From IMG/VR virus record IMGVR_UViG_3300021478_000058, positions 1 through 44,300 of that record: a DNA stretch of 44,300 nucleotides; one strand, 5' to 3'. Below are positions 5,159-44,300 of this stretch, one piece after another. The notes beneath the pieces were generated by a model. The model had not been told where the DNA came from and did not search any database. It worked only from the letters and a program-made list of their open reading frames with translations. Each line of letters opens with the position of its first letter. Positions within the stretch are counted from its first letter, which is position 1. Source of the DNA: a virus. The position numbers and the translations under genes were made by a program.

Positions 5159-5698
5159 ATGGAGTTCGACCGGATCAACGGGATTCCAATCGACGGAGGA
5201 ATAGCCTATAAAGAGGGAGTTATGGCAGGGGACTGCCCCTATATGGAAGAGGATGATGACTTCGCTCGGTGGAATGATGAATGGGACGCCGCAGCGGACG
5301 AACACGAAAACACAAATAATCAAGAATTCAACAAAGTGGGGTCAGTGGTAACTAATCGTTACCGTGCACTATATTCAGAGATGGGGCACCCTACTCATTG
5401 CGGGGATGACTTGGCCAACCTGCTCAACTCGATCTGCGTCAACAAGGCAGGCACCAATCTGGAGCTATTTGAGAGGATATGCGAGGCGAACGGGGTGGAC
5501 CTAGGTAAGTATAACAGAACTGCCAAAGGTTGGCAAGGTCGGTTACGCATGACCGGACGTAACCTACTGGCCAAGCGCGTAGTGGAAAACAACGGCATGG
5601 TTGTAATGCCAGAAGGGATGGGTGATTATCACCAACTGGACGAGGATTGGATAGAACGGACTCGCAACAAGTATAAACCAAGGACAAACAATGAATAA
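5159..5698 (+). CDS. Member B of the four-copy RMTGR paralogue family
   Basis: A 179-residue protein. The first ~60 residues are acidic and unlike the other copies. The rest aligns with the family: VVTNRYRALY, CEANGVDLGKY, then KGWQGRLRMTGRNLL and a C-terminal MVVMPEG. Here the WDWL motif of copies A and D is replaced by DDLANLLNSI. It stands directly behind its own palindrome-bearing promoter at 5091-5120. GGAG lies eight bases before the ATG. The next gene overlaps its end by eight bases. A nucleic-acid-binding role is inferred from the Arg-rich helix only. Confidence 0.8.
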   Translation: MEFDRINGIPIDGGIAYKEGVMAGDCPYMEEDDDFARWNDEWDAAADEHENTNNQEFNKVGSVVTNRYRALYSEMGHPTHCGDDLANLLNSICVNKAGTNLELFERICEANGVDLGKYNRTAKGWQGRLRMTGRNLLAKRVVENNGMVVMPEGMGDYHQLDEDWIERTRNKYKPRTNNE

Positions 5699-7348: not shown

Positions 7349-7378
7349 AAAGACTTGCACTGCCCCCTGTGCGCGACA

Positions 7379-7421
7379 GCTACGACGAGGAACAAGGACC
7401 GGCCAGTCCCCTCGTCGTAGC
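7379..7421 (+). promoter_or_regulatory. Strong leader hairpin before the primase-helicase
   Basis: GCTACGACGAGG (7379-7390) pairs perfectly over 12 bases with CCTCGTCGTAGC (7410-7421). Inside the loop GGAC (7396-7399) can pair with GTCC (7406-7409). It lies entirely in the 5' leader, 28 bases before the ATG, and probably controls stability or translation of the mRNA. Confidence 0.6.
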
Positions 7422-7449
7422 AACAGTCTTTGGGGGATACGGGGGAGCC

Positions 7450-9990
7450 ATGGAGAGCATCAAGGGCGGATTTGCGTTTAATCAATCCGACGAAAAGCTA
7501 ATAAACCAACAAAGATCAATAACCGCCCAGATTAACAATAACTTCATTCAAGTCGGCGCTGTTTTTCTTCAGATGTCCGGGAAGCATCCCTTTACCTCGG
7601 ACTGGTACAAGCGCAAATTCCGCGACACCAACTTGCAAGACTGGATTGACGACACCGATATGCGTGTTCTCAATCTCGGCTTCAACTTGCAGTTTGGCTG
7701 GCTCGACGTAGATATAGACGCCGAAGACCCACGCTACAATCAGTGCATAGTCAAAGCATTCAAATTCCTTAGCGTCGATACCAGATTCGCATTTGGGCGA
7801 CTGTCCAAAGGTGTTCCGTCCCATTTGATGGTGCAATTGAATGAGACCGATCTGAACAATTACGATATGATGAAGGAATTTGAGCCCAAAGAATTCAAAT
7901 TAGGTGGTAACCGGTATAAGTGCGAACTGCGCTCGATGGGACCGCAGACCGATACCGATAAGCTGAACACCATCAAAGAATCGCGCCAGACTGTGATGCC
8001 GGGGAGCATTTACGCCCACAAGACCAAGGCGGGCGAACACGACGTATCTGTTTGGTATACCGACACCGGCAAGGTAGCTATTCACATCGGCGAAGTGGCA
8101 GCGACTACGCCGCACAAAACCTCATATTCTACCCTAATAACTGCCATCGCGTTCGGCACCTTTCTATATGTAATACAACCTCACTGGACAGAAGGCACAC
8201 GCCAAAACCTAGCTATAAAAGTATCCGGCTGGTTGGCTCGATTGGTGCGCGAAAGCCAAGGGATCAACAACAACGAGGGAATTTCTAAAGGAACGTTCTG
8301 CCCAATCGGGACGCCTGAGACAGCCGAATCCATGCTAGATTTCTTGTGCGGTGAGTGTGGCGACAAAGAAGCGTACATGAGAAAGAGGATATTCCGTGAC
8401 GCGATCAAAAAGCTCGAGAACAACCCCGACGCCAGAATCCCCGGTTGGCCAGCACTTGAGGCTGACGTTGGAACTGAAGCCCTCATCGCGCTTCGCACGG
8501 TTTTTATGCCGGGTGTTGATGTCTCGCCTCTCACTCAAATGGCAGATCGATACATTTACGACGAAACAGATGACAAGTACATTGATCGAGACCGGTTCTA
8601 TACAATGTCCGGGTTTGTCCACGACGGAGCTGAACTTGACCGTCGCCACCGTAACGATCTTATGGACGTTGCCGGAAAAATGAGGCCGGTGTTTAAGCTG
8701 TTTGAGACATCCCCGCTGCGACGCCGCGTTGGCGGTAGAGATTTGTTCCCCGACTTCCCGCCGGGGTCTATATTCAGAATGACGCGGGCGGGCGACACGA
8801 TTCCGGACGATCAAGACGCAGAATTAGGCACGCTGACTATGTTCAACACGTGGCGCGGCTGGCCTATCCTGCCGACCAGAAATCCAGACTTAATAATGCT
8901 ACGCAAATGTACTGTTATGATGGACAAGCTATTTGGATATTTGAGCCAAGACAACAAAGAGCAAGTAGAGTGGTTAAAGCAATGGATAGCATGGACAGTT
9001 CAGAACCCCGGCCAGAAGCAACAGATCGCCCCTGTTTTCGTGGGGGGACAAGGTGTTGGAAAGTCATTCTTTGGGAACATATTCTTAGAACAGCTGTTTC
9101 AGAACCAATGGGGTTCTGCCTCGCCGAAAATTCTAGAGGGCGCGTTCTCTGTCGAACCATTCATAAATAAAATGTTTGTGTTTATAGACGAGGCCAAATT
9201 CCATACTGAAAGCAGTACCGACGAAATAAAGAAACTAATTCGCTCAGACCGAATGGGCGGTGCCGAGAAGTTCCAATCCGCAAAGACATATCGCATCTTC
9301 GCCCGCGTCATCTTTGCTTCCAATCGATTCGATATGAACATCGGGCAGGCCAATACACAAGACCGCGCGCTGTTTTATATGAAGACTTACGATAAAGACT
9401 TTAAGGGGATGACTGACAACCAATTTAGAAGCTGGGCGATTACTCTCAAGCCGTTCTTTGATGAATTTAACACGTTAATCCGCCGCATGGATGTCAAAGA
9501 ACATTTCATGCACATCTTCAATACGATGGCGGTATCCAAGCACGACGTTGAGAACGTTAACTTTTCTAGTGGCACTGATGTTCACATAGTCGAATCCAAT
9601 ATGGCTTACCCGCGACGTGTAGCCAAAGCCATTATAGAGGAAGGCCGCATCTGGGAGGATTTGGATATATCCGCCCCATTCACCATGCAGGAATTCAATA
9701 AACGAGTAGCCGACACCTGCGATTCGCTGCGCTTGAAGTTTGTTCAACCTCGGCATGTTTTCGATGAGTATGTAAGCGCTGGCGTAATCGAAAAGTGGGC
9801 AAGCAACGGCGCGAAGTTCTGGCGGTTCAAATACCGAATTGGCACGCTGACCGAAATGATGGGCGCGGCTATTGGAGTACCGTTAGAATCTAGGTTCTCG
9901 TTCACCGAGGAAGACTACGGCACCAATGAGTCAGAATTGATGGGTGCGAAGGGCTGGCGCGGCGGCGTTAACTCCCGTTTCCGCGTCTGA
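7450..9990 (+). CDS. Primase-polymerase / SF3-type helicase
   Basis: An 846-residue replication protein. The N-terminal part has the archaeo-eukaryotic primase (PrimPol) signature DVDID at residues 86-90 and a downstream PSH with His125. The C-terminal part is a D5/SF3-like helicase with Walker A GGQGVGKS (Lys538), Walker B FIDEA (Asp580, Glu581) and an ASN motif-C near residue 625. It would synthesise primers and unwind the phage DNA. The ATG at 7450 is chosen because it follows GGGGGAG, although the spacing is short. A longer reading from GTG 7369 would run through the leader hairpin. Phages with this gene type often use it as the main replisome core. Confidence 0.88.
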   Translation: MESIKGGFAFNQSDEKLINQQRSITAQINNNFIQVGAVFLQMSGKHPFTSDWYKRKFRDTNLQDWIDDTDMRVLNLGFNLQFGWLDVDIDAEDPRYNQCIVKAFKFLSVDTRFAFGRLSKGVPSHLMVQLNETDLNNYDMMKEFEPKEFKLGGNRYKCELRSMGPQTDTDKLNTIKESRQTVMPGSIYAHKTKAGEHDVSVWYTDTGKVAIHIGEVAATTPHKTSYSTLITAIAFGTFLYVIQPHWTEGTRQNLAIKVSGWLARLVRESQGINNNEGISKGTFCPIGTPETAESMLDFLCGECGDKEAYMRKRIFRDAIKKLENNPDARIPGWPALEADVGTEALIALRTVFMPGVDVSPLTQMADRYIYDETDDKYIDRDRFYTMSGFVHDGAELDRRHRNDLMDVAGKMRPVFKLFETSPLRRRVGGRDLFPDFPPGSIFRMTRAGDTIPDDQDAELGTLTMFNTWRGWPILPTRNPDLIMLRKCTVMMDKLFGYLSQDNKEQVEWLKQWIAWTVQNPGQKQQIAPVFVGGQGVGKSFFGNIFLEQLFQNQWGSASPKILEGAFSVEPFINKMFVFIDEAKFHTESSTDEIKKLIRSDRMGGAEKFQSAKTYRIFARVIFASNRFDMNIGQANTQDRALFYMKTYDKDFKGMTDNQFRSWAITLKPFFDEFNTLIRRMDVKEHFMHIFNTMAVSKHDVENVNFSSGTDVHIVESNMAYPRRVAKAIIEEGRIWEDLDISAPFTMQEFNKRVADTCDSLRLKFVQPRHVFDEYVSAGVIEKWASNGAKFWRFKYRIGTLTEMMGAAIGVPLESRFSFTEEDYGTNESELMGAKGWRGGVNSRFRV

Positions 9991-12267: not shown

Positions 12268-12780
12268 ATGCGACCATTTCTAGCTATGATTACCCCTGTT
12301 GGGGATTTAGGCAGCCCGGTTGATCCCGGTTGGGGCGTCGGTGGACCCGGCAGTCCCGGTGGTCCGGGTGGACCCGGCAGTCCGGGTGGGCCGGGACCGG
12401 TATATCCGGCGCACCCAATCGCGGGTGGACCGTGGCCAACACACCCAATTGCTGGTCCTCAACCGCCTCAAGGTGGCGGTGGAGGCGCTCATCCTGAACA
12501 CCCAATCTACTTCCCACCAGAAAGTGGGCAACCACCGCTTGGTATTTGGGGTCCGCCGGATATGCCTCCAGGCTTCTGGGGTGGTGGAATGGGACCGGGC
12601 GTGAAGCCGCAACCCCATCCTGAACACCCGATTGTGTTGCCGCCTGATCTTCCAGCGGAAATTCCGCCTCCGAATGGCGGCGAGGCAATTCCGATCGAGT
12701 GGAAAACTGGCTGGACGCAAGTTACCGGCTGGGTAATCGTTGGTATTCCTACAGTGCCGCATCCAACACCATCCAAGTAA
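12268..12780 (+). CDS. Gly/Pro-rich collagen-like protein
   Basis: A 170-residue protein with a strong TAAGGAGG site. Residues ~20-45 are made of Gly-x-y triplets of the GPGSPGGPG type, and the middle repeats a HPEHPI/HPIAG motif about four times. Only the last ~30 residues look folded (TGWTQVTGWVIVGIPTVP). It is unexpected among replication genes. A second Pro-rich Trp/Tyr-repeat protein lies in the tail region at 32871-33149. It may be a virion or surface protein expressed early, or a linker protein. Unknown. Confidence 0.7.
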   Translation: MRPFLAMITPVGDLGSPVDPGWGVGGPGSPGGPGGPGSPGGPGPVYPAHPIAGGPWPTHPIAGPQPPQGGGGGAHPEHPIYFPPESGQPPLGIWGPPDMPPGFWGGGMGPGVKPQPHPEHPIVLPPDLPAEIPPPNGGEAIPIEWKTGWTQVTGWVIVGIPTVPHPTPSK

Positions 12781-12853: not shown

Positions 12854-13129
12854 ATGCCACAATTGGGCGACAGACCGATCCAGCAAGAATACTACGAAAT
12901 GATGAACGCCGTCGCGGCGGCACTTGACAAGACATTCAACAGAGAATTAAAGGGCAAAGCTCGTACGACTGGATTTGTGCTGTTGGTTTATCCCTTTGAG
13001 AATATGGAAAAAGGCGACGCGCGCTGTAACTTTATATCCAACGGCGCAGATCGCAAGGATGTAGTTGCCCTGATGAAAGAGATGATCGCGCGGTTCGAGG
13101 GGCAGCCACAGATGGATGGTCACACATGA
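12854..13129 (+). CDS. Small conserved phage protein
   Basis: A 91-residue protein. The ATG at 12854 has GGAG six bases upstream and comes right after a hairpin. The core TTGFVLLVYPF, CNFISNGADRKDVVALMKE is a pattern I believe is shared by short proteins in many unrelated phages, with no known function. It overlaps the DNA polymerase start by four bases (ATGA), which suggests stoichiometric or coupled expression with the polymerase. Confidence 0.75.
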   Translation: MPQLGDRPIQQEYYEMMNAVAAALDKTFNRELKGKARTTGFVLLVYPFENMEKGDARCNFISNGADRKDVVALMKEMIARFEGQPQMDGHT

Positions 13130-14919
13130 AGCATGTAATCAACCCACAATTAGCTTTAGACATTGTGCGGTGCCATTACAAGCCGATTGCGTTCGACACT
13201 GAGACTACCGGAATTACTGTTCAAGACAAAGTTTGCGGCTACGTCATCACCAACGACGAGTATTCAACATACACACCAGTCCGCCATGAAGGCGGGGGCA
13301 ACATCCCAAATGTAGAGGAGTTCGAACATGAGCTTCATAGAGCATTTGGAGATCGTAGCAGGATGCTTTTTCTTACTGTGGGCCATAACTTCGGCTTTGA
13401 TCTGCGCATATGTCTTCGCCATGGAATCACTTTGGCGGGACCGCTAGAAGACACGATGATCAATGAGGCGATCATTAGTGATATTGTTCAGGGGCACGGA
13501 TTGGCCGAGTGTTGCTTACGGCACCGCGTAACAGCTAAGAAAGGAGATGAAATCTATGCCGAATTGGCCAGGAGGTTCGGTGGATTACCCGACAAGAAAC
13601 AAATGGGCAAATTCTGGAAGCTGGAGGGGGACCATCCTCTCGTCGTCGATTACGCCACAGGCGACGGCGTTTCAACCTTGGAGTTATGGGCGAAACAGCA
13701 ACGAATACTTGACGCAGACGGGCTACGAAAATCGTGGCAACTTGAGTGCGATCTATTACCATACGTCGCAAAAATCCACCATCGAGGACTAAAAATTGAC
13801 CCCGAATACGCGGGGCAAGTAGGAACAGAGGTAGAAAATGCCATTAAAGAAAAAAGCAAAGTCTTTATCCCCGGCTTCAACGTCCGATCGCCAAAAGCCG
13901 TCGAAGCCCTCTACCGAACCAACGGATACACCGATGAACGATTCGCCCGTACCGATAGCGGGGCTTTATCCTTCACCGAAAAATGGCTTGAAACAAACGA
14001 CATCGGCGGAGCCATCCTCGCAGTTAGACGGCTCGAAAAGGCACGGGATTCCTTTATTGCACCCCTTATTGATACCCACAATGTCAACGGACGAGTTCAC
14101 CCGGTCCTCAACCAGTCCAAATCAGACGACTACGGAGTTGCCGGTGTCAGATTTTCCTGCTCCGAACCAAACCTACAAGCTTTCCCCAAGAGAAATATTG
14201 ATGTTGGCAGAGTTGTTAGAAGGCTGGTCGTCCCGGACGAAGGATTCGTCTTTGAAGAAGCAGATGCGAAACAGCAAGAACCAAGACTATTCACTCATTA
14301 TTCGGGTGACCCGGCATTGGTTGATGGATACCGTAGCGGAACTATGGATATCCACGACAGAGCCTCCCAAGTCTTTGGGTTAGAGCGCGACGTAGCCAAG
14401 CGAATGGCGATGGGGATGTTGACTATGATGTCCCCACCGACGCTTGCAGGCCATATGCGATGGCCTATAGAGCAAGCGCGCGAGGCTCATCGCCGCTTTC
14501 TCACCGATGCGTTCCCAGCAATCAAAACATTCCAGGACACCGCAATCCATGTATTCCGGAGGCGAGGATATGTCAAAACCTTACTTGGCAGACGCGCTTA
14601 TTTGGATGACCCCCGATTCGCCTATCGTGCAGTATCAAGAATCATCCAGAATGTCGGCGGCGAGCACCTCAAAATGTGCCTTCTCCGAGCTTGCAAGTAC
14701 GAAGACGCCTACCCTAATGATGTTCAGATCCTGCTTACGATTCATGATAGCTTACTCTGGCAGCGAAATCCAAGTCACTCCCCCACCGATTTAATTAGAT
14801 GTATTGAACACGTCGCAGAGGAACTCGAATTATCAGTTCCCATTCCATTTGGCTTAGGCAGCGGCAAAGATTGGGCAAGGGCTTCTTATGGCGATAAACT
14901 CGATAAGTATGACGAGTAG
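13126..14919 (+). CDS. Family A DNA polymerase with divergent motifs
   Basis: A 597-residue PolA-type polymerase. The N-terminal ~200 residues are a DEDD 3'-5' exonuclease (AFDTETTG near residue 24, GHNFGFDL later). In the polymerase domain, motif A is DAKQQEPR (Asp380), motif B is RDVAKRMAMGMLTMM (Arg421, Lys425), and motif C is IHDS (Asp541). Compared with E. coli Pol I the motif A Ser is Lys, the O-helix Phe and Tyr positions are Met and Thr, and the Glu of His-Asp-Glu is Ser. The 5' nuclease domain is absent, as usual in phages. Next to purZ it is a candidate 2-aminoadenine-using DpoZ (inference). Confidence 0.88.
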   Translation: MKHVINPQLALDIVRCHYKPIAFDTETTGITVQDKVCGYVITNDEYSTYTPVRHEGGGNIPNVEEFEHELHRAFGDRSRMLFLTVGHNFGFDLRICLRHGITLAGPLEDTMINEAIISDIVQGHGLAECCLRHRVTAKKGDEIYAELARRFGGLPDKKQMGKFWKLEGDHPLVVDYATGDGVSTLELWAKQQRILDADGLRKSWQLECDLLPYVAKIHHRGLKIDPEYAGQVGTEVENAIKEKSKVFIPGFNVRSPKAVEALYRTNGYTDERFARTDSGALSFTEKWLETNDIGGAILAVRRLEKARDSFIAPLIDTHNVNGRVHPVLNQSKSDDYGVAGVRFSCSEPNLQAFPKRNIDVGRVVRRLVVPDEGFVFEEADAKQQEPRLFTHYSGDPALVDGYRSGTMDIHDRASQVFGLERDVAKRMAMGMLTMMSPPTLAGHMRWPIEQAREAHRRFLTDAFPAIKTFQDTAIHVFRRRGYVKTLLGRRAYLDDPRFAYRAVSRIIQNVGGEHLKMCLLRACKYEDAYPNDVQILLTIHDSLLWQRNPSHSPTDLIRCIEHVAEELELSVPIPFGLGSGKDWARASYGDKLDKYDE

Positions 14920-14953
14920 CCAGAAGAGATATTTAAAAGCGCTGAAGCGATAC

Positions 14954-14982
14954 TTGACAGGGACAGCACGAGGTGTTAAAAT
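14954..14982 (+). promoter_or_regulatory. Sigma-70 promoter overlapping a start codon
   Basis: TTGACA (14954-14959), 17 bases, TAAAAT (14977-14982). The last two bases of the -10 are the first two of the ATG at 14981. Transcripts would begin near 14989, inside the gene, so they would mainly serve the downstream nuclease, purZ and MazG-like genes. Confidence 0.7.
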
Positions 14983-15202
14983 GCCATACCGACCGGGTGA
15001 CCCAACCGTAGAAGTGGAAGGTCGCATCGAAACCTCGACCGCTAAGGCATACCTAATTGAGCCAACCATGAGCAAGAAGACCGAAGTATGGTTGCCCAAA
15101 TCCCAAACGGTGGGGATGACCGATCCGGACGACAACGGTGTACGAGTATTCACGGTAACCCAATGGTGGTACAAACAATCAGGGATGGAAGAAGATGAGT
15201 GA
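14981..15202 (+). CDS. Hypothetical protein after the DNA polymerase
   Basis: A 73-residue protein from the ATG at 14981 (GAGG seven bases upstream). An in-frame ATG at 14888 (AAGGG six bases upstream) would give 104 residues but would add a stretch that is mostly promoter sequence. The core VEVEGRIETSTAKAYLIEP and EVWLPKSQT suggests a small beta-barrel. It overlaps the next gene by eight bases. No named family. Confidence 0.7.
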   Translation: MPYRPGDPTVEVEGRIETSTAKAYLIEPTMSKKTEVWLPKSQTVGMTDPDDNGVRVFTVTQWWYKQSGMEEDE

Positions 15203-15401
15203 AGGTAATTGGAGACCAAGGCCAGAAATACCGCGATCATACAGCTACGAAATGGCGTATTGTAAAGACCCGAATTGTGGGTTACACCTAATCGCTAAAG
15301 ATGAACACGGCAACGATATCTGCGAAATCGTAATGTCGCCAGCCCAAACACTAAAGCTGATCAGCTTCTGTAAGAAGATGCTATACGAGAAAGCAATCTA
15401 A
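15195..15401 (+). CDS. Small hypothetical protein
   Basis: A 68-residue protein overlapping the previous gene. GGAAGAAG precedes the ATG. It has three Cys residues (YCKDPNCGLHL, then DICEIV) and a C-terminal helix. No recognised family. It lies between the polymerase and nuclease genes. Confidence 0.7.
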   Translation: MSEGNWRPRPEIPRSYSYEMAYCKDPNCGLHLIAKDEHGNDICEIVMSPAQTLKLISFCKKMLYEKAI

Positions 15402-15403
15402 TA

Positions 15404-15799
15404 ATGAGAGAGGCTGATGTAAAGCGGCTGATGGTAAAATCGATGACTACGGGTGGCGGTTACGCGCGCCGCATCGAAGACCAATATGGAGTAGGCATTT
15501 TTGATTTGGTACTTATTCCGCGCGGATATCCGGTATTCTTCGCCGAGGTTAAGATCATCCAGGGCAATTTATTTGGCCCAACCCCGAGGCAATACATCGA
15601 ATTACAGCACATTTTAAGCATTGCCGCCAATGCTGGCCACGTTATTCCCGTGATGATTGGGTGGCAACACGGGACATACTACTTCCATCCGCCCCAAAAC
15701 AAGATCGACAAAAAGGATTGTTTCTCCGTAACTACGAGCGACATGGTATTCCATGATCAACTAATAAAATACTACCATTCACAGAAAGGTAAAACATGA
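15404..15799 (+). CDS. VRR-NUC domain nuclease
   Basis: A 131-residue small PD-(D/E)xK nuclease of the VRR-NUC type. The diagnostic pattern is a Glu at residue 25, GIFDLVLIP with Asp34, FFAEVK with Glu48 and Lys50, then GPTPRQYIEL. Stand-alone VRR-NUC proteins of phages are thought to cut branched or flap DNA and often accompany a SNF2-like helicase, which is found here at 17582. Start follows the previous stop by two bases. It overlaps the next gene by four bases. Confidence 0.85.
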   Translation: MREADVKRLMVKSMTTGGGYARRIEDQYGVGIFDLVLIPRGYPVFFAEVKIIQGNLFGPTPRQYIELQHILSIAANAGHVIPVMIGWQHGTYYFHPPQNKIDKKDCFSVTTSDMVFHDQLIKYYHSQKGKT

Positions 15800-16158
15800 A
15801 CCCAAATATCAAGCCGGACGAACTGAACATCGCCGAAAGCATCCTGCTCGACGCGGCCAATGCGATTCGAGACCGTAGCAAGGAACACGGTCACACCGAG
15901 CGATCATTTATGATGATCGCCGAAATGTGGACGACCTATATTGGCCATGTCTACACGATACGAGGCGAGACTAGGTTGCGTCCCCACGATGTGGCATTCA
16001 TGATGGATATGCTAAAGACTGCGCGGTCTGTGTATGGCTTCTCGACGGACAACTTTGTGGATAAAGCTGGGTTCTCGGCGCTGGCTGCGATGCTAACACC
16101 AAATCCCGGCCCAGCCCACAAGAAGATCGAAAAGGAACCAAAGAATGGACCTATTTAA
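15796..16158 (+). CDS. DUF6378-like phage protein
   Basis: A 120-residue helical protein. The pattern ILLDAANAIRDRSKEHGHTE, then IAEMWTTYIG, then LRPHDVAFMMDMLKTAR, then DNFVDKAGFSALAAM matches the phage domain I know as DUF6378. No biochemical role is established to my knowledge. It starts inside the nuclease stop and overlaps purZ by 14 bases, so it is made together with the nucleotide-metabolism genes. Confidence 0.75.
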   Translation: MNPNIKPDELNIAESILLDAANAIRDRSKEHGHTERSFMMIAEMWTTYIGHVYTIRGETRLRPHDVAFMMDMLKTARSVYGFSTDNFVDKAGFSALAAMLTPNPGPAHKKIEKEPKNGPI

Positions 16159-17194
16159 GTACCGGGGAATCCACTGCGTAGTTGACGGTCAATACGGCTC
16201 AACGGGAAAGGGGGCGTTGAGCGCGTATTTGGCTGAGCAATCGATCAAACATGAGCGCCATTTCGAGGGAGCAATCTACAGTGGTGGCCCAAATAGTGGG
16301 CATACATTCTTCCACAACGGTGATCGCCACGTAGTGAAGCAGTTGCCAGCATCCGCTGTTTATTTGGCGTTACGCGGAAAAGTATCGACGGCTTATTTAT
16401 CAGCGGGCGCGGTTATTGACCGCGACGTGCTCAAAGAGGAAGCCAATAGGTACCCTAATCTCCATATATTCGTGCACCCCAATGCCGCTATCGTGACGGA
16501 CGAGGACAAAAAGGCCGAAGAGTATGGTTCTATAGCGGAAGTGGCCGGAACTCGTAGCGGAACTGGCGAGGCGCTGGTCCGGAAGGTGCGGCGCGAGTTC
16601 AGCGCTATTGCCAACAACTCGCTGGGAATGCTAGCCACCAACGTAGTAATCCAAAATCACAGGTTAAAACCTGAGCGAAACGCGTATTTCATGGAAGTAT
16701 CACAGGGGTTCAGCCTTGGCATCAACTCACAGTTCTATCCAAAAGTTACTAGCCGCGAGTGCACGGTTATGCAAGGTCTTGCCGACGCACGAATTGCTCC
16801 TCGGCATTTGGCTCGCATTTATATGGCTATACGCACCTTTCCCATTAGGGTTGGTAATGTCGATGGCCATTCTAGTGGTAATTGGTATTCGGATCAGCAT
16901 GAAACTACTTGGGAAAAAATAGGGGTAGAACCAGAACTGACCACGGTAACCAAACGAGTGCGGCGCGTTGCAACATTCTCGATGGATCAATTCTACGACG
17001 CCTGTTACGCCAATGATCCAGACGTGGTGTTCATTAGCCACATGGATTACTTAAACAGGGAGCGCCAACTTGCATTGTTGGATGATATCAATCAAGCACG
17101 GGGCAGCATGAATAAACACTTTTCCCTGATGGCCAGTTACGGCCCAACAGTAAACGACGTGCGCAAGGAGGACGAATTATATGAGCAACGATAA
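16145..17194 (+). CDS. purZ: PurZ, adenylosuccinate synthetase-like enzyme for 2-aminoadenine
   Basis: A 349-residue relative of PurA, about 80 residues shorter than bacterial PurA. The catalytic loop reads GQYGSTGKG, so the Asp of GDEGKG in PurA is Ser19, with Lys22 kept. This substitution marks PurZ. Other family blocks are present: GGPNSGHT (His53), VAGTRSGTG, MEVSQGFSLGI, and a C-terminal TTVTKRVRRVA. PurZ joins aspartate to dGMP, giving the precursor of 2,6-diaminopurine deoxynucleotide, which host enzymes finish. It overlaps DUF6378 upstream and the MazG-like gene downstream. An ordinary salvage PurA is unlikely because of the Ser. A PurZ0-type variant is an alternative. Confidence 0.9.
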   Translation: MDLFKYRGIHCVVDGQYGSTGKGALSAYLAEQSIKHERHFEGAIYSGGPNSGHTFFHNGDRHVVKQLPASAVYLALRGKVSTAYLSAGAVIDRDVLKEEANRYPNLHIFVHPNAAIVTDEDKKAEEYGSIAEVAGTRSGTGEALVRKVRREFSAIANNSLGMLATNVVIQNHRLKPERNAYFMEVSQGFSLGINSQFYPKVTSRECTVMQGLADARIAPRHLARIYMAIRTFPIRVGNVDGHSSGNWYSDQHETTWEKIGVEPELTTVTKRVRRVATFSMDQFYDACYANDPDVVFISHMDYLNRERQLALLDDINQARGSMNKHFSLMASYGPTVNDVRKEDELYEQR

Positions 17195-17513
17195 AGTTTT
17201 GTTACTCCACGTCCCCAATTCAATCGCTAAGTATGGCGAGCACCTAATGTGGTTCTTCGAGGGGATGCTAATCAAACTAGATAAGAACAGCCACAAAACC
17301 ACTCCGACGTCCAAGGATATCCCGGCGATCATCGAGGACCTGCGCGAAGAGGTAATTGAGTTTGAGGAGCAATTGGCCCTCAACAAGTTCGATGAGAACA
17401 CCCTCATTGAATTGATGGACGCCGCCAACTTCGCATTTTTGGCCTATGTCGCCCTTAGGCTTCAGGGAGTGGAGCATGAACGTAAAACTAAAACTCCGCC
17501 GCTCGGACTGTGA
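17181..17513 (+). CDS. mazZ: MazG-like pyrophosphohydrolase (MazZ candidate)
   Basis: A 110-residue all-helical protein with the MazG signature: Glu57-x-x-Glu60, then Glu77-x-x-Asp80 (ELMDAANFAFLAY). AGGAGG precedes the ATG, which lies inside the last codons of purZ. In Z-genome phages the MazZ enzyme converts dGTP to dGMP, the substrate of PurZ. The direct overlap with purZ makes this role likely, though general dNTP housecleaning cannot be excluded from sequence. Confidence 0.8.
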   Translation: MSNDKVLLLHVPNSIAKYGEHLMWFFEGMLIKLDKNSHKTTPTSKDIPAIIEDLREEVIEFEEQLALNKFDENTLIELMDAANFAFLAYVALRLQGVEHERKTKTPPLGL

Positions 17514-17658
17514 ATGGTTGAAATCCATGTACGGTAAAGACTGGGTTAACCGGTTGAAGCAGCATATAAAAGGAGAAGTACATGCTAGAAAGGTTAGATC
17601 GAACTGGTACAACGAAGTTGCTAGACGTACAAGAAAAAGCTCTTATAAGTTCAAATGA
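17476..17658 (+). CDS. Small basic protein overlapping MazG-like and helicase genes
   Basis: A 60-residue protein, highly basic (many Lys and Arg) with WLKSMYGKDWVNRLKQHIKGE. GGGAG lies six bases before the ATG. It overlaps the preceding gene by 38 bases and the helicase start by 77 bases in another frame. It may be a small nucleic-acid-binding protein. The large double overlap is unusual but the ribosome site is good. Confidence 0.6.
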   Translation: MNVKLKLRRSDCEWLKSMYGKDWVNRLKQHIKGEVHARKVRSNWYNEVARRTRKSSYKFK

Positions 17659-18997
17659 AGTTCCTGGATTTGCTTACTATATGGAAATGGGGCTGGGGAA
17701 AACTCTGACTGCGCTGATAGAATTCTTGAGTTTGGTAGCCCAAAAGAAAGCAACCAGATTAGTAGTGGTCTGTCCCAACAGCTTCAAGATGGGGTGGGTG
17801 GAAGAGATCAAAAAGCACGACATCAATGTGCACCCTTATGTGTTCAATTCCGGCGCGGACTACGACAACGACGCATTTCTAAAGGTATTATTCAAAAAGC
17901 CACCAGTATTGATCGTCAATTATGAAGCGATCCGCAAGGCTGAGAACCAGATATACATCAGGAGATTTATCCACGACAAGAGATGTATGATCGTACTAGA
18001 CGAATCCATCCAAATCAAGACGTGGAATAGTCTACAGACCAAAGCCGCGCTCGAACTAGGCCCGCTGTTCGATTATAAGCGCGTGCTGTCTGGCAAACCT
18101 GTCACCGGAGGCCCGCACGACCTTTGGGCTCAGATGCGATTTATCGGGGCGATCAATGATCGCTTTTTCCCATTCAAGACTACGTTCTGTAAGATGGGCG
18201 GGTTCAAAGCCAAAAAGGTAGTAGGAATCCAAAATGAGGCACTCCTTGCAGCTAAGATTGACAAGTATGTATTCCGAGCTTCTAAGGCGGACTGGACTGA
18301 CCTTCCGGCTAAATCGTACACGTCCAGACAGTACCAGCTTACATCGAGGTTGGCTAGTATGTATAAGAGTATGGAAGACGACTTTGTTCTTTGGCTCGAT
18401 GAAACCGAGAACGTAACCGTCGACGCATTCATCACCAAATATATCAAATTAGCCCAAATACAGTCTGGATTTATTATAAGTGAAGAAGGTATCGTCAAAG
18501 AATTAGTATCTTGGGTGGATAATCCCCGGTTCAAATTAGTCCAAGAGATAATAGAGGAGGTAAGCGGCAAGGCAGTTATACCGTATGTTCACAAGTACAC
18601 TCTGATCTTATTAGAGCGGTCGCTGGCCGATTATAACCCCGCTTTTATTAAAGGTGGAATGACTCCCGATGAAATCAAAGCCCAAACAGACAAATTCAAC
18701 GACGACCCGACGTGCAGAATTATTCTTGCACAGATTCGTGCTAGCAAGTATGGTTTTACTTGGCTTGGTGGACATGCTCCTTTGGATAGATGCAATACGA
18801 TGATTTTTGCCGAGAATTCATATTCCTTAGACGACAGAAGTCAGATCGAGGACCGTATCCATCGCCACGGACAAAAGAATCCATGTCTATATGTTGATCT
18901 TTGGGGGACAAAGTTAGACCATAGGATAACGATGGCACTGCAAGCCAAAGAGAACATAGCGCAAGCAGTGTTCCAATACTTCGGTAAATCACGTTAG
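17582..18997 (+). CDS. SNF2-like DEAD/H helicase
   Basis: A 471-residue superfamily 2 ATPase with AAAGGAG before the ATG. Motif I is MGLGKT (Lys40), motif Ia CPNSFKMGWVEEI, motif II LDESIQ (Asp140, Glu141), motif III LSGKPV, and motif VI DRSQIEDRIHRHGQ, the SNF2 form. Phage proteins of this type probably remodel branched or protein-bound DNA in replication and recombination, with the VRR-NUC nuclease as partner. It is the last gene of the rightward arm. Its stop codon overlaps that of the convergent small gene at 18994. Confidence 0.88.
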   Translation: MLERLDRTGTTKLLDVQEKALISSNEVPGFAYYMEMGLGKTLTALIEFLSLVAQKKATRLVVVCPNSFKMGWVEEIKKHDINVHPYVFNSGADYDNDAFLKVLFKKPPVLIVNYEAIRKAENQIYIRRFIHDKRCMIVLDESIQIKTWNSLQTKAALELGPLFDYKRVLSGKPVTGGPHDLWAQMRFIGAINDRFFPFKTTFCKMGGFKAKKVVGIQNEALLAAKIDKYVFRASKADWTDLPAKSYTSRQYQLTSRLASMYKSMEDDFVLWLDETENVTVDAFITKYIKLAQIQSGFIISEEGIVKELVSWVDNPRFKLVQEIIEEVSGKAVIPYVHKYTLILLERSLADYNPAFIKGGMTPDEIKAQTDKFNDDPTCRIILAQIRASKYGFTWLGGHAPLDRCNTMIFAENSYSLDDRSQIEDRIHRHGQKNPCLYVDLWGTKLDHRITMALQAKENIAQAVFQYFGKSR

Positions 18998-41972: not shown

Positions 41973-42587
41973 TTACGTACGCGCGGGCGTATTGATAACC
42001 GGCGAATTCGGCTGTACCCGCGCGGCGGCTTGTTGCCTTGGGCTGCCGTGTTCGTCCACGGGTTGTCCCGCGCTTGCGAGCGATTCCTTTATCCTCGCTT
42101 CCATACCGGGATCATTCCTCGGGTCCGGCATGGGTTGCATATTGGGCGTAATGGGCGCCCCAGAAGGGGTCACCAAATGGTCCGCTTGCTCGGGGAAGTA
42201 CCCTACAACGGGCGCTGCCACAGTTCCTACTTCGGGAGGGTCAATTGTAGCCGGTCCAGTCGGCTTCCCTTCTTCATCCAAACGAACCCATCCCTTCTCG
42301 CCATGGCCAAGCTGGCCCGACATTTCTTGGTCGCCGAATTCCTCGATCGCTTTGATTCTCTTCTTCTCGGTCTCCAATTCAAGCTCAAGCTCCTTGATCC
42401 GCGCCTCGTGAGCATGCTTGATGGCCAAATTCTGACCGTCCTTGGCGACCTGATGAGTGCTGTCAGACTTATGTGGAGGTGCCGCAGCGGGGGAAGGGGA
42501 CTTCGGCGGTGCCGCTGGAGGCTGCGTCGAAGCAGCCGCCGGGTTGTGGGGAGGCGCTTGCGGGGTGTGCGGAGGTTGGTTGGCCAT
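41973..42587 (-). CDS. Pro-rich coiled-coil protein, first late gene
   Basis: A 204-residue protein. Residues ~1-45 are Pro/Ala/His-rich, residues ~50-85 are a charged helix (IKELELELETEKKRIKAIEE) that should form a coiled coil, and the rest is Pro-rich and flexible. No family recognised. It directly follows the late promoter at 42618-42647 and precedes the terminase genes. Possibly an assembly or terminase-associated protein (inference). Confidence 0.7.
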   Translation of the reverse strand: MANQPPHTPQAPPHNPAAASTQPPAAPPKSPSPAAAPPHKSDSTHQVAKDGQNLAIKHAHEARIKELELELETEKKRIKAIEEFGDQEMSGQLGHGEKGWVRLDEEGKPTGPATIDPPEVGTVAAPVVGYFPEQADHLVTPSGAPITPNMQPMPDPRNDPGMEARIKESLASAGQPVDEHGSPRQQAAARVQPNSPVINTPART

Positions 42588-42617
42588 CGAAGGGGCTCCC
42601 TGTTATATGAATGTAAC

Positions 42618-42647
42618 AGGGTAGCACACGGGCTGGGTAGCTGTCAA
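42618..42647 (-). promoter_or_regulatory. Late leftward promoter with operator
   Basis: Reading leftward, TTGACA (42647-42642), 18 bases ending CCGTGTGC, TACCCT (42623-42618). An inverted repeat CCCTGTTA (42598-42605) with TAACAGGG (42614-42621) covers the -10 and the start point near 42611. It is the first promoter of the late arm and is probably repressed early. Confidence 0.75.
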
Positions 42648-42728
42648 GATCAGAGAAGTATATTCGGGAGGCGTTCAGAGTACGCGGATACGCATAGTGA
42701 AGAGCGTTGCACGTCGAGACGGGTCCCG

Positions 42729-42755
42729 CCTTCGAGTTGCTTTGCAACTCGAAGG
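42729..42755. repeat. Perfect 12-base-pair inverted repeat
   Basis: CCTTCGAGTTGC (42729-42740) and GCAACTCGAAGG (42744-42755) are separated by three T bases, with GTCCCG and CGGGGG flanks that extend the stem. It is not followed by a T run on either strand, so it is probably not a terminator. A cruciform, origin or protein site are options. Confidence 0.65.
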
Positions 42756-42830
42756 TCGGGGGAGTTTCGAACACAACCGCGGGTTGTGGCACGAGTCTTG
42801 CATTGCAAGGGCCGTACCAATCTTTGTCAA

Positions 42831-42907
42831 TGTGACACGGTGTCGCAGTATCGGAAGTTGTTCAGACATGCGAAACGGTTGTGTGCGATATGCGACACTG
42901 TGTCACA
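42831..42907. promoter_or_regulatory. Pair of 17-base operators
   Basis: TGTGACACGGTGTCGCA (42831-42847) and TGCGACACTGTGTCACA (42891-42907) are near-perfect palindromes and reverse complements of each other apart from one base. Their centres are 60 bases apart. The second lies about 45 bases before the predicted start of the paralogue D transcript, a position used by activators and also by repressors. Confidence 0.7.
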
Positions 42908-42983
42908 TATGCGACGCACGTTGCGACATGCTTTAATAATCTCACGGTCGCGATGGAGCGACCGGTACAACGGAGCAAGGCAC

Positions 42984-43466
42984 ATGTCGAAGCGCAAGCA
43001 CAAGGAAGTCGTGGAACCGGTCGTGGAACCGGTCGTGGTGGAACCGGTGGAACCGGTGGAACCGGTGGAACCGGAGGTCGAGATCGACGCGGAGGTCGCG
43101 GAAGAGATCGTCAAGCGAAGCTCGGTGGTCCGCCCCGCATACAAGAAGCGCTACGCGGAACGCGCCGCAGCGAACGGTGGCGGAAAGGTCGCACAGCGAA
43201 GCTGCTGGGATTGGCTGGCACAAACGCTCGCTGGCGAATGCCTCGTCGGATCGAAGATCAGCATCGACCGGTTCCTCGCCCTGCTCGACGCGAACGGCGT
43301 TGACCACAGCCGCTGGAACAACCGCAACAAGGGTTGGGAAGGCCGGCTGCGGATGACAGGAAGGCTGGCGCTGCAGAAGGTCGTCGCGGCGCAGGGCGTG
43401 CTGAAGACCGCCGATGGCGAGACGCTCGAAGCACCGGCGGAATGGGTCGCGAAGCACACCCACTAA
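42984..43466 (+). CDS. Member D of the four-copy RMTGR paralogue family
   Basis: A 160-residue protein. The N-terminal ~45 residues contain the repeat VEPV many times in an acidic Pro/Glu-rich arm. The domain follows: SVVRPAYKKRY, WDWLAQTLAG, LLDANGVDHSRWNNRNKGWE, then GRLRMTGRLALQ, and TADGETLEAP near the end. It is the closest relative of member A. It is controlled by the operator-rich region upstream and ends before a GC-rich hairpin. GGAGCAAGG lies upstream of the ATG. Confidence 0.85.
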   Translation: MSKRKHKEVVEPVVEPVVVEPVEPVEPVEPEVEIDAEVAEEIVKRSSVVRPAYKKRYAERAAANGGGKVAQRSCWDWLAQTLAGECLVGSKISIDRFLALLDANGVDHSRWNNRNKGWEGRLRMTGRLALQKVVAAQGVLKTADGETLEAPAEWVAKHTH

Positions 43467-43817: not shown

Positions 43818-44158
43818 AACTGTATTCGTCGTGCGGAATGCGAAACTTTTCGTGCGACTGAAACTTTTCGCGCGACGCGTGGGCAGCTGCCCAACATTCG
43901 CTGCCCACTGTTGAAACGTTTCGCGAGCCCCGAGCCAAGAAGAGACGTAACCAGAGCACGGCGTACGCGGTTCCCCGTGTTCTCAGGTTACCGCGCTACA
44001 CAGGGGGGACTCAGTACACAACTTTTTACAGCACAGGTACACAACACTGCAACACTTTATTTTCCCCCAGCTTTTTTCCCACCATGTACTATCCCCCCAC
44101 TGTGAAGAGAGGTAAGGAGGGACTACGGAGAACCGCGTACACAGAACTACTTCTTTAC

Positions 44159-44216
44159 TTGACAGACACTCCGCGCTGTGCTGTGCTGTGCTGTGCTGTG
44201 CTGTGCTATATATACT
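44159..44216 (+). promoter_or_regulatory. Sigma-70 promoter split by the CTGTG repeat
   Basis: The -35 is TTGACA at 44159-44164. TATATA starts at 44207 and is preceded by TGC, the extended -10 seen in sister promoters. With six repeat units the spacer is 42 bases and with seven it is 47. With one unit it would be exactly 17, as in most other promoters here. In the circular genome it would drive the small gene at 81-296. As written, the -35 and -10 cannot be contacted together, so the promoter should be off or depend on the extended -10 alone. Confidence 0.65.
44176..44205 (+). repeat. CTGTG pentanucleotide tandem repeat, 6 units
   Basis: Six perfect CTGTG units lie between a TTGACA at 44159-44164 and a TATATA at 44207-44212. 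Each unit changes the -35/-10 distance by five bases. Confidence 0.9.
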
Positions 44217-44245
44217 ATTCTTACTGACAACAACGGAGTCTTCTC

Positions 44246-44300
44246 ATGCCTTTCGATCTCACGCTCTCTTTCGACGATTCGATCCATATCCTCTCACAGC
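44246..44300 (+). CDS. Partial second copy of the gene at 81-296
   Basis: The first 18 codons of the gene at 81-296 are repeated exactly here and are cut by the window end. This is the product of terminal redundancy or assembly overlap, not a separate gene. Confidence 0.85.
   Translation, partial: MPFDLTLSFDDSIHILSQ

Follow-up and report, generated by a model that had tools for sequence, protein, structure and literature searches.

A PurZ-type phage genome of the vB_OspP_OH kind without DatZ

The PurZ locus and its replication cluster

The IMG/VR virus record IMGVR_UViG_3300021478_000058 (44300 bases, analyzed at its full length and hereafter called the window) carries a gene for PurZ, a 2-aminoadenylosuccinate synthetase, together with a MazG-like gene and a family A DNA polymerase (PolA). 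The original prediction for this DNA had read these three genes as the published gene set of phages that carry 2-aminoadenine (Z) instead of adenine (A). The gene coordinates given there all hold, as does the distance of 1.2 kb between PolA and PurZ; no mention was made of a DUF6378 gene (15796-16158), of a small gene at 17476-17658, or of the lack of DatZ. The genes belong to a conserved replication cluster with the following members:

7369 to 9990, + strand: primase-polymerase/helicase-like protein, first gene of the cluster (DUF5906, 9.6e-14; phrog_1156 DNA primase, 6e-23)
13126 to 14919, + strand: family A DNA polymerase with 3'-5' exonuclease (Pfam DNA_pol_A, 4.9e-43; phrog_17, 2e-70)
15404 to 15799, + strand: small nuclease-like gene, possibly of VRR type (phrog_93 endonuclease, weak at 0.0024; kept in the cluster by synteny)
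15796 to 16158, + strand: DUF6378 protein (Pfam DUF6378, 5e-19), overlapping the start of PurZ by 14 nt
16145 to 17194, + strand: PurZ, 2-aminoadenylosuccinate synthetase (phrog_1211 '2-aminooxy adenylosuccinate synthetase', 1.3e-55; Pfam Adenylsucc_synt, 5e-21)
17181 to 17513, + strand: MazZ-2, MazG-like candidate (d)GTP diphosphohydrolase, overlapping PurZ by 14 nt
17476 to 17658, + strand: small gene in the DatZ slot, 60 amino acids plus stop, overlapping MazZ-2 and the helicase
17582 to 18997, + strand: SNF2-type DNA helicase, last gene of the cluster (Pfam SNF2-rel_dom, 9e-21; phrog_62, 3e-91)

Apart from the small gene, this cluster is common to about 70 non-redundant IMG/VR loci and occurs in the same order in Ochrobactrum phage vB_OspP_OH (OH). 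The primase-polymerase/helicase-like protein, for which the match to the Prim-Pol domain is weak (0.06), is 50% identical to the OH primase-polymerase, and the helicase is 49% identical to its OH counterpart. A near-identity DNA search of the window against named phages gave no match.

PurZ and its donor site

PurZ carries Ser19, within a GSTGKG motif, in place of the catalytic Asp13 of PurA, just as originally described; the serine is invariant in 20 aligned PurZ sequences, one of them a PurZ0. A phylogeny had been proposed as a check, and in a tree of 76 rows the window protein falls into a clade of 64 rows that includes OH. This clade is sister (99/91) to the PurZ proteins of S-2L, phiVC8, SH-Ab 15497, PMBT28, Bm1, BUCT555, ZP6, and K300. 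PurZ0 (98/98) and E. coli PurA, the latter on a very long branch, lie outside this grouping, and the best PDB matches of the window protein are the PurZ structures of phiVC8 and S-2L. Judged by its residues and its position in the tree, the protein is a true PurZ, neither PurA nor PurZ0, and the grouping with ordinary PurA that would have counted against the original prediction is not seen.

The residues that form the dGMP pocket and confer selectivity for the deoxy substrate, as well as those that contact the base of the donor nucleotide, were taken from the S-2L enzyme (PMC8342488). All of the former are kept in the window (S-2L N49, T132, R146, Q190, R240, V241, T273-T276, and R280), with Ala50 to Ser as the sole change in the pocket set. 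The formation of dSMP from dGMP and aspartate is the predicted activity of this enzyme. The ATP-recognition residues of S-2L PurZ (N305, F306, and Q308), which are not needed for membership in PurZ, are not kept: S-2L Asn305 (Asn297 in phiVC8), Phe306, and Gln308 correspond to Ser298, His299, and Asp301. This Ser-His-x-Asp site is found in the window and the subclade around it. Asn-Phe-x-Asn is kept in OH, in deeper members of the clade and in locus L127, and Asn-Phe-x-Asp occurs in L157. The last position is also Asp in E. coli PurA and in the three PurZ0 proteins examined. Based on these residues, the window PurZ probably uses GTP rather than ATP as donor. One sentence in the literature assigns ATP to PurZ0 and GTP to PurZ, in conflict with the introduction of the same paper, where PurZ uses ATP (PMC12884076); that introduction and the structures of the S-2L and phiVC8 enzymes are followed here, with ATP as the donor of PurZ. 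A link between the donor-site switch and the loss of DatZ was ruled out, as DatZ-containing L019 and L114 have Ser-His-x-Asp and DatZ-lacking L127 has Asn-Phe-x-Asn.

PurZ-like genes also occur in bacterial and archaeal genome records (L051-L089), including many metagenome-assembled genomes (MAGs) of Clostridia, Microbacterium sp. Root180 (L058), and a Woesearchaeota MAG (L054). These are probably proviruses or viral contigs.

MazZ-2, DUF6378 and the missing dATP-removing enzymes

The MazG-like gene that the original prediction placed in overlap with PurZ is a MazZ-2. It has no match to Pfam MazG and was found with a profile of OH and phiVC8 MazZ-2 (4e-8); the acidic residues Glu57, Glu60, Glu77, and Asp80 are invariant with MazZ-2 of phiVC8, ZP6, and OH. 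The protein is a candidate dGTP diphosphohydrolase. It is conceivable that PurZ is a leftover or has another job and that the DNA contains ordinary adenine only. However, PurZ, MazZ-2, and PolA travel together through about 70 divergent loci with their active-site residues conserved, which makes this explanation very improbable.

The part of the original prediction that is not supported as it stands concerns the completeness of the gene set. The datZ gene that accompanies mazZ and purZ in the Z-cluster is missing from the complete genome, in which neither Pfam PF12917 nor tblastn nor a profile of 13 DatZ sequences run without filters gave a match, and a location of DatZ elsewhere in the genome was thus ruled out. 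The same profile does detect DatZ in OH, in the DatZ-containing relatives, and in each of the eight PurZ-type phages that served as references. The genome is considered complete because of an exact overlap of 126 bp between both ends of the record, which also rules out a partial contig as the cause of the missing gene:

10 to 135, no strand: left copy of the 126-bp terminal overlap, an exact match to the right copy
44175 to 44300, no strand: right copy of the terminal overlap

Replacement of DatZ by another dATP-removing enzyme was considered as well. The DUF550, dUTPase/DutZ (PF00692), DUF5664 (PF18909), and NDT (PF05014) families were not found in the complete genome, and neither was DmtZ, for which the search relied solely on the general model of the NDT family, a model that may overlook it. 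PurZ phages have been reported to 'mostly' encode DatZ (PMC12884076), so the literature leaves room for exceptions; no description of the present lineage was found in the open literature searched.

Another explanation is that DUF6378 or MazZ-2 also hydrolyzes dATP, making DatZ redundant in the clade. There is a precedent in the DUF5664-DUF550 protein of SH-Ab 15497, which hydrolyzes dATP as well as dGTP (PMC12884076), and the DUF6378 gene overlaps PurZ and is kept through the clade. However, OH and other members have both proteins alongside DatZ, and DUF6378 is a general phage family (phrog_474) present outside the Z cluster too. Its low-confidence four-helix model has no informative PDB match and provides no fold evidence for an NTP-PPase, leaving a role as a MazG-type dATPase undecided. 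Overall, redundancy of DatZ on these grounds appears unlikely.

A mirror case was observed in four loci (L134, L135, L143, and L144; records G036-G039), in which DatZ directly follows PurZ with no MazZ-2 between them. The MazZ-2 profile has no match in G036 or G037, both partial genomes.

The DatZ slot and its small gene

In the window, the slot between MazZ-2 and the helicase is occupied by the small gene, whose ATG is preceded by a purine-rich GGAG stretch. When gene families were compared between eight DatZ-lacking and nine DatZ-containing genomes of the clade, the family of this open reading frame (ORF) was the one most confined to the former (7/8 versus 0/9). The ORF is a real gene, as the ratio of nonsynonymous to synonymous change (pN/pS) stays under 1 in each of the 300 pairwise comparisons among 25 sequences and variation is greatest at third codon positions. 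An alignment of 21 members contains invariant Trp17, Trp26, Arg29, His33, Glu37, Arg41, and Trp52 (L112 numbering).

Of the 62 loci that could be scored, DatZ occurs alone in 32 and the small gene alone in 27; three loci lack both genes, and no locus has the two together. A tree of PolA, PurZ, and helicase from 43 loci implies six changes of DatZ and five of the small gene. Among four independent pairs on supported branches, DatZ and the small gene are opposite in three; in the fourth, the small gene stays the same. DatZ and the small gene have thus been exchanged repeatedly in a single slot; the number of independent events is too small to claim significance.

From this pattern, it could be proposed that the small protein does the job of DatZ, for instance by reducing the dATP level together with a partner from host or phage, or by making the polymerase more selective. 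The shared operon slot, the lack of any locus with both genes among the 62, the roughly five exchanges, and purifying selection would all fit such a role. Conversely, three loci do without either gene, a protein of about 60 amino acids with no enzyme motif is unlikely to be a dATPase, and the exchange could be plain gene turnover, given that an ORF with an HNH-like pattern enters the slot too. A homologue also occurs in a virus without detectable PurZ, so the family is not strictly linked to Z. Taken together, substitution for DatZ by the small protein is rather doubtful.

The homologue in question lies at positions 3001-3138 of L224, a virus record of 50.5 kb that encodes UvrD-like and AAA-type proteins, as judged by eye. 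Pfam, PHROG, and PDB contained no convincing match to the small protein, and 50,697 records of named phages contained none at all. Visual inspection of its sequence pattern had pointed to a ribbon-helix-helix regulator, for which Foldseek gave no support. The HNH-like ORF, likewise recognized by eye, is flanked by the small gene and the helicase in two loci (L099:5488-5853 and L128:5490-5894), and the DatZ slot therefore looks like an insertion hot spot.

A sister group of known Z-DNA polymerases

In a tree of 33 family A polymerases, the window and OH belong to a monophyletic clade (100/100) that is sister to phiVC8-like DpoZ (86/89) and separate from the Wayne-like group. The window PolA is closest to OH (60.7% identity) and to the polymerases of Z phages, and its best PDB match is phiVC8. 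It represents a group that has not been described before and is sister to the known Z-DNA polymerases.

Insertion 2 (helix O) and insertion 3 (fingers), which are specific to the phiVC8-like clade (PMC8599892), are absent throughout the window/OH clade. The only characteristic change common to both DpoZ types is Phe at phiVC8 position 459, where other PolA enzymes have Tyr (PMC8599892). At this motif B gate, the window and the aligned clade members carry Thr rather than Phe, except for Ser in OH, L148, and its near-identical copy L149; seven of seven comparison polymerases from outside Z phages have Tyr. Wayne-like DpoZ selects Z despite having no phiVC8 insertions (PMC8599892), so the missing insertions are no argument against Z selectivity.

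These observations bear on whether the window makes dZTP and yet carries a mixture of Z and A in its DNA. In favor of a mixed genome, the complete sequence holds no match to DatZ or to DutZ, DUF550, DUF5664, or NDT-type enzymes, and the polymerase lacks the known DpoZ hallmarks. Two points count against it: the Wayne-like precedent, by which insertions are not required, and the nearly equivalent polymerase (77-79% identity) of close relatives that have DatZ. A mixed genome is a tentative possibility, somewhat on the unlikely side.

A known system in a new form

Together, these data suggest with good confidence that the window is a Z-genome phage of PurZ type that resembles vB_OspP_OH and belongs to a lineage from which DatZ has been lost. 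This reading draws on the residues and phylogeny of PurZ, the adjacent MazZ-2, the gene order shared with OH and about 70 IMG/VR loci, the placement of PolA beside the polymerases of OH and other Z phages, and a complete genome without DatZ. Several points weigh against it. The donor switch is read from three residues, the sisterhood of PolA to phiVC8-like DpoZ has moderate support, and the polymerase lacks the DpoZ sequence hallmarks tested. Moreover, when the S-2L triad was expressed in E. coli, less Z was obtained without datZ or without mazZ (PMC8342488).

As OH, which shares the gene order, has been published as a Z-cluster phage, substantial Z in the DNA is likely. Complete replacement of A, as originally predicted, is graded lower: with DatZ and its tested substitutes missing and a polymerase without DpoZ hallmarks, it is only plausible.

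The established route leads from dGTP to dGMP by MazZ and from dGMP to dSMP by PurZ, after which host steps yield dZTP (PMC8342488; PMC12884076). In the window, MazZ-2 would convert dGTP to dGMP, and PurZ would join dGMP and aspartate, probably spending GTP rather than ATP. Host enzymes would finish dZTP, and the phage PolA would then copy the genome with Z. Since no known phage dATP-destroying enzyme is present in the genome, A might be kept out through the choice of the polymerase, host enzymes, or the small protein that occupies the place of DatZ; its exclusion might also be incomplete. That a polymerase of this family can select Z is illustrated by phiVC8 DpoZ (PMC8599892), and S-2L is an example of a non-selective polymerase that depends on DatZ (PMC8065100).

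The window represents a known system in a new form. Its interest comes from the lack of DatZ, the small gene found in exchange for it, a polymerase with Thr at the gate, and the altered PurZ donor site. A bolder proposal, in which these features form a third kind of Z-DNA replication, with a Thr-gate PolA that excludes A without a dATPase, helped by the small protein exchanged for DatZ, and a PurZ switched from ATP to GTP, is quite unlikely.

The exclusion of A in Z phages is partly understood, being assigned to a dATPase in S-2L, and the preference of DpoZ for Z has not been pinned to a residue. Natural sister genomes with and without DatZ but with nearly the same polymerase make the need for DatZ directly testable. 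The Thr/Ser gate, lacking the one residue change common to both DpoZ types, offers an enzyme that can show whether this change matters, and the altered donor site of PurZ provides a further clean prediction.

Other features of the genome

A 10-bp tandem repeat (GCTGTGCTGT) lies inside the terminal overlap, and an imperfect inverted repeat of 56 nt is found shortly before it (5-42, 43963-44140, and 44175-44209); the two possibly mark a site of replication or packaging. Toward both ends, several ORFs are mutually related, as if duplicated (603-1394, 842-1498, 5159-5698, 42030-43466, and 43151-43459). Upstream of PolA, a Gly-Pro-rich ORF with GPGGPGSPGGPGP repeats (12268-12780) overlaps the next gene and is partly present in a few relatives.

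Comparison with known systems

By protein, the nearest named relative is Ochrobactrum phage vB_OspP_OH (MT028492, Wolominvirus), whose PurZ is 53.8% and PolA 60.7% identical to those of the window. OH is a published PurZ/MazZ-2/DatZ phage, and its MazZ-2 is cited in earlier work (PMC8342488). The two share the order PrimPol, Gam-like, PolA, nuclease, DUF6378, PurZ, MazZ-2, and SNF2 helicase, as well as a PolA of the same insertion-less group. Unlike the window, OH lacks the small gene and instead carries gp34 and DatZ in the interval from MazZ-2 to the helicase; the donor site of its PurZ is the ATP-type Asn-Phe-x-Asn and its polymerase gate is Ser, compared with Ser-His-x-Asp and Thr in the window.

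Vibrio phage phiVC8 likewise has PurZ, MazZ-2, and a PolA with 3'-5' exonuclease, but differs in its DatZ, its helix-O and fingers insertions, its Phe gate, and its ATP-type PurZ. In cyanophage S-2L, PurZ also adjoins a MazG-like gene; however, this phage has DatZ, MazZ-1, and a PrimPol as its sole polymerase (PMC8065100), and the window PrimPol has no similarity to that of S-2L. The PurZ0 phages (Wayne and Ghobes, with DutZ/DmtZ/DUF5664) resemble the window in having no DatZ, a PolA without the helix-O insertion, and Asp at the last donor-site position. Unlike them, the window has a PurZ that falls outside PurZ0 in the tree, no dUTPase, DUF5664, or NDT match, and a PolA that is not Wayne-like.

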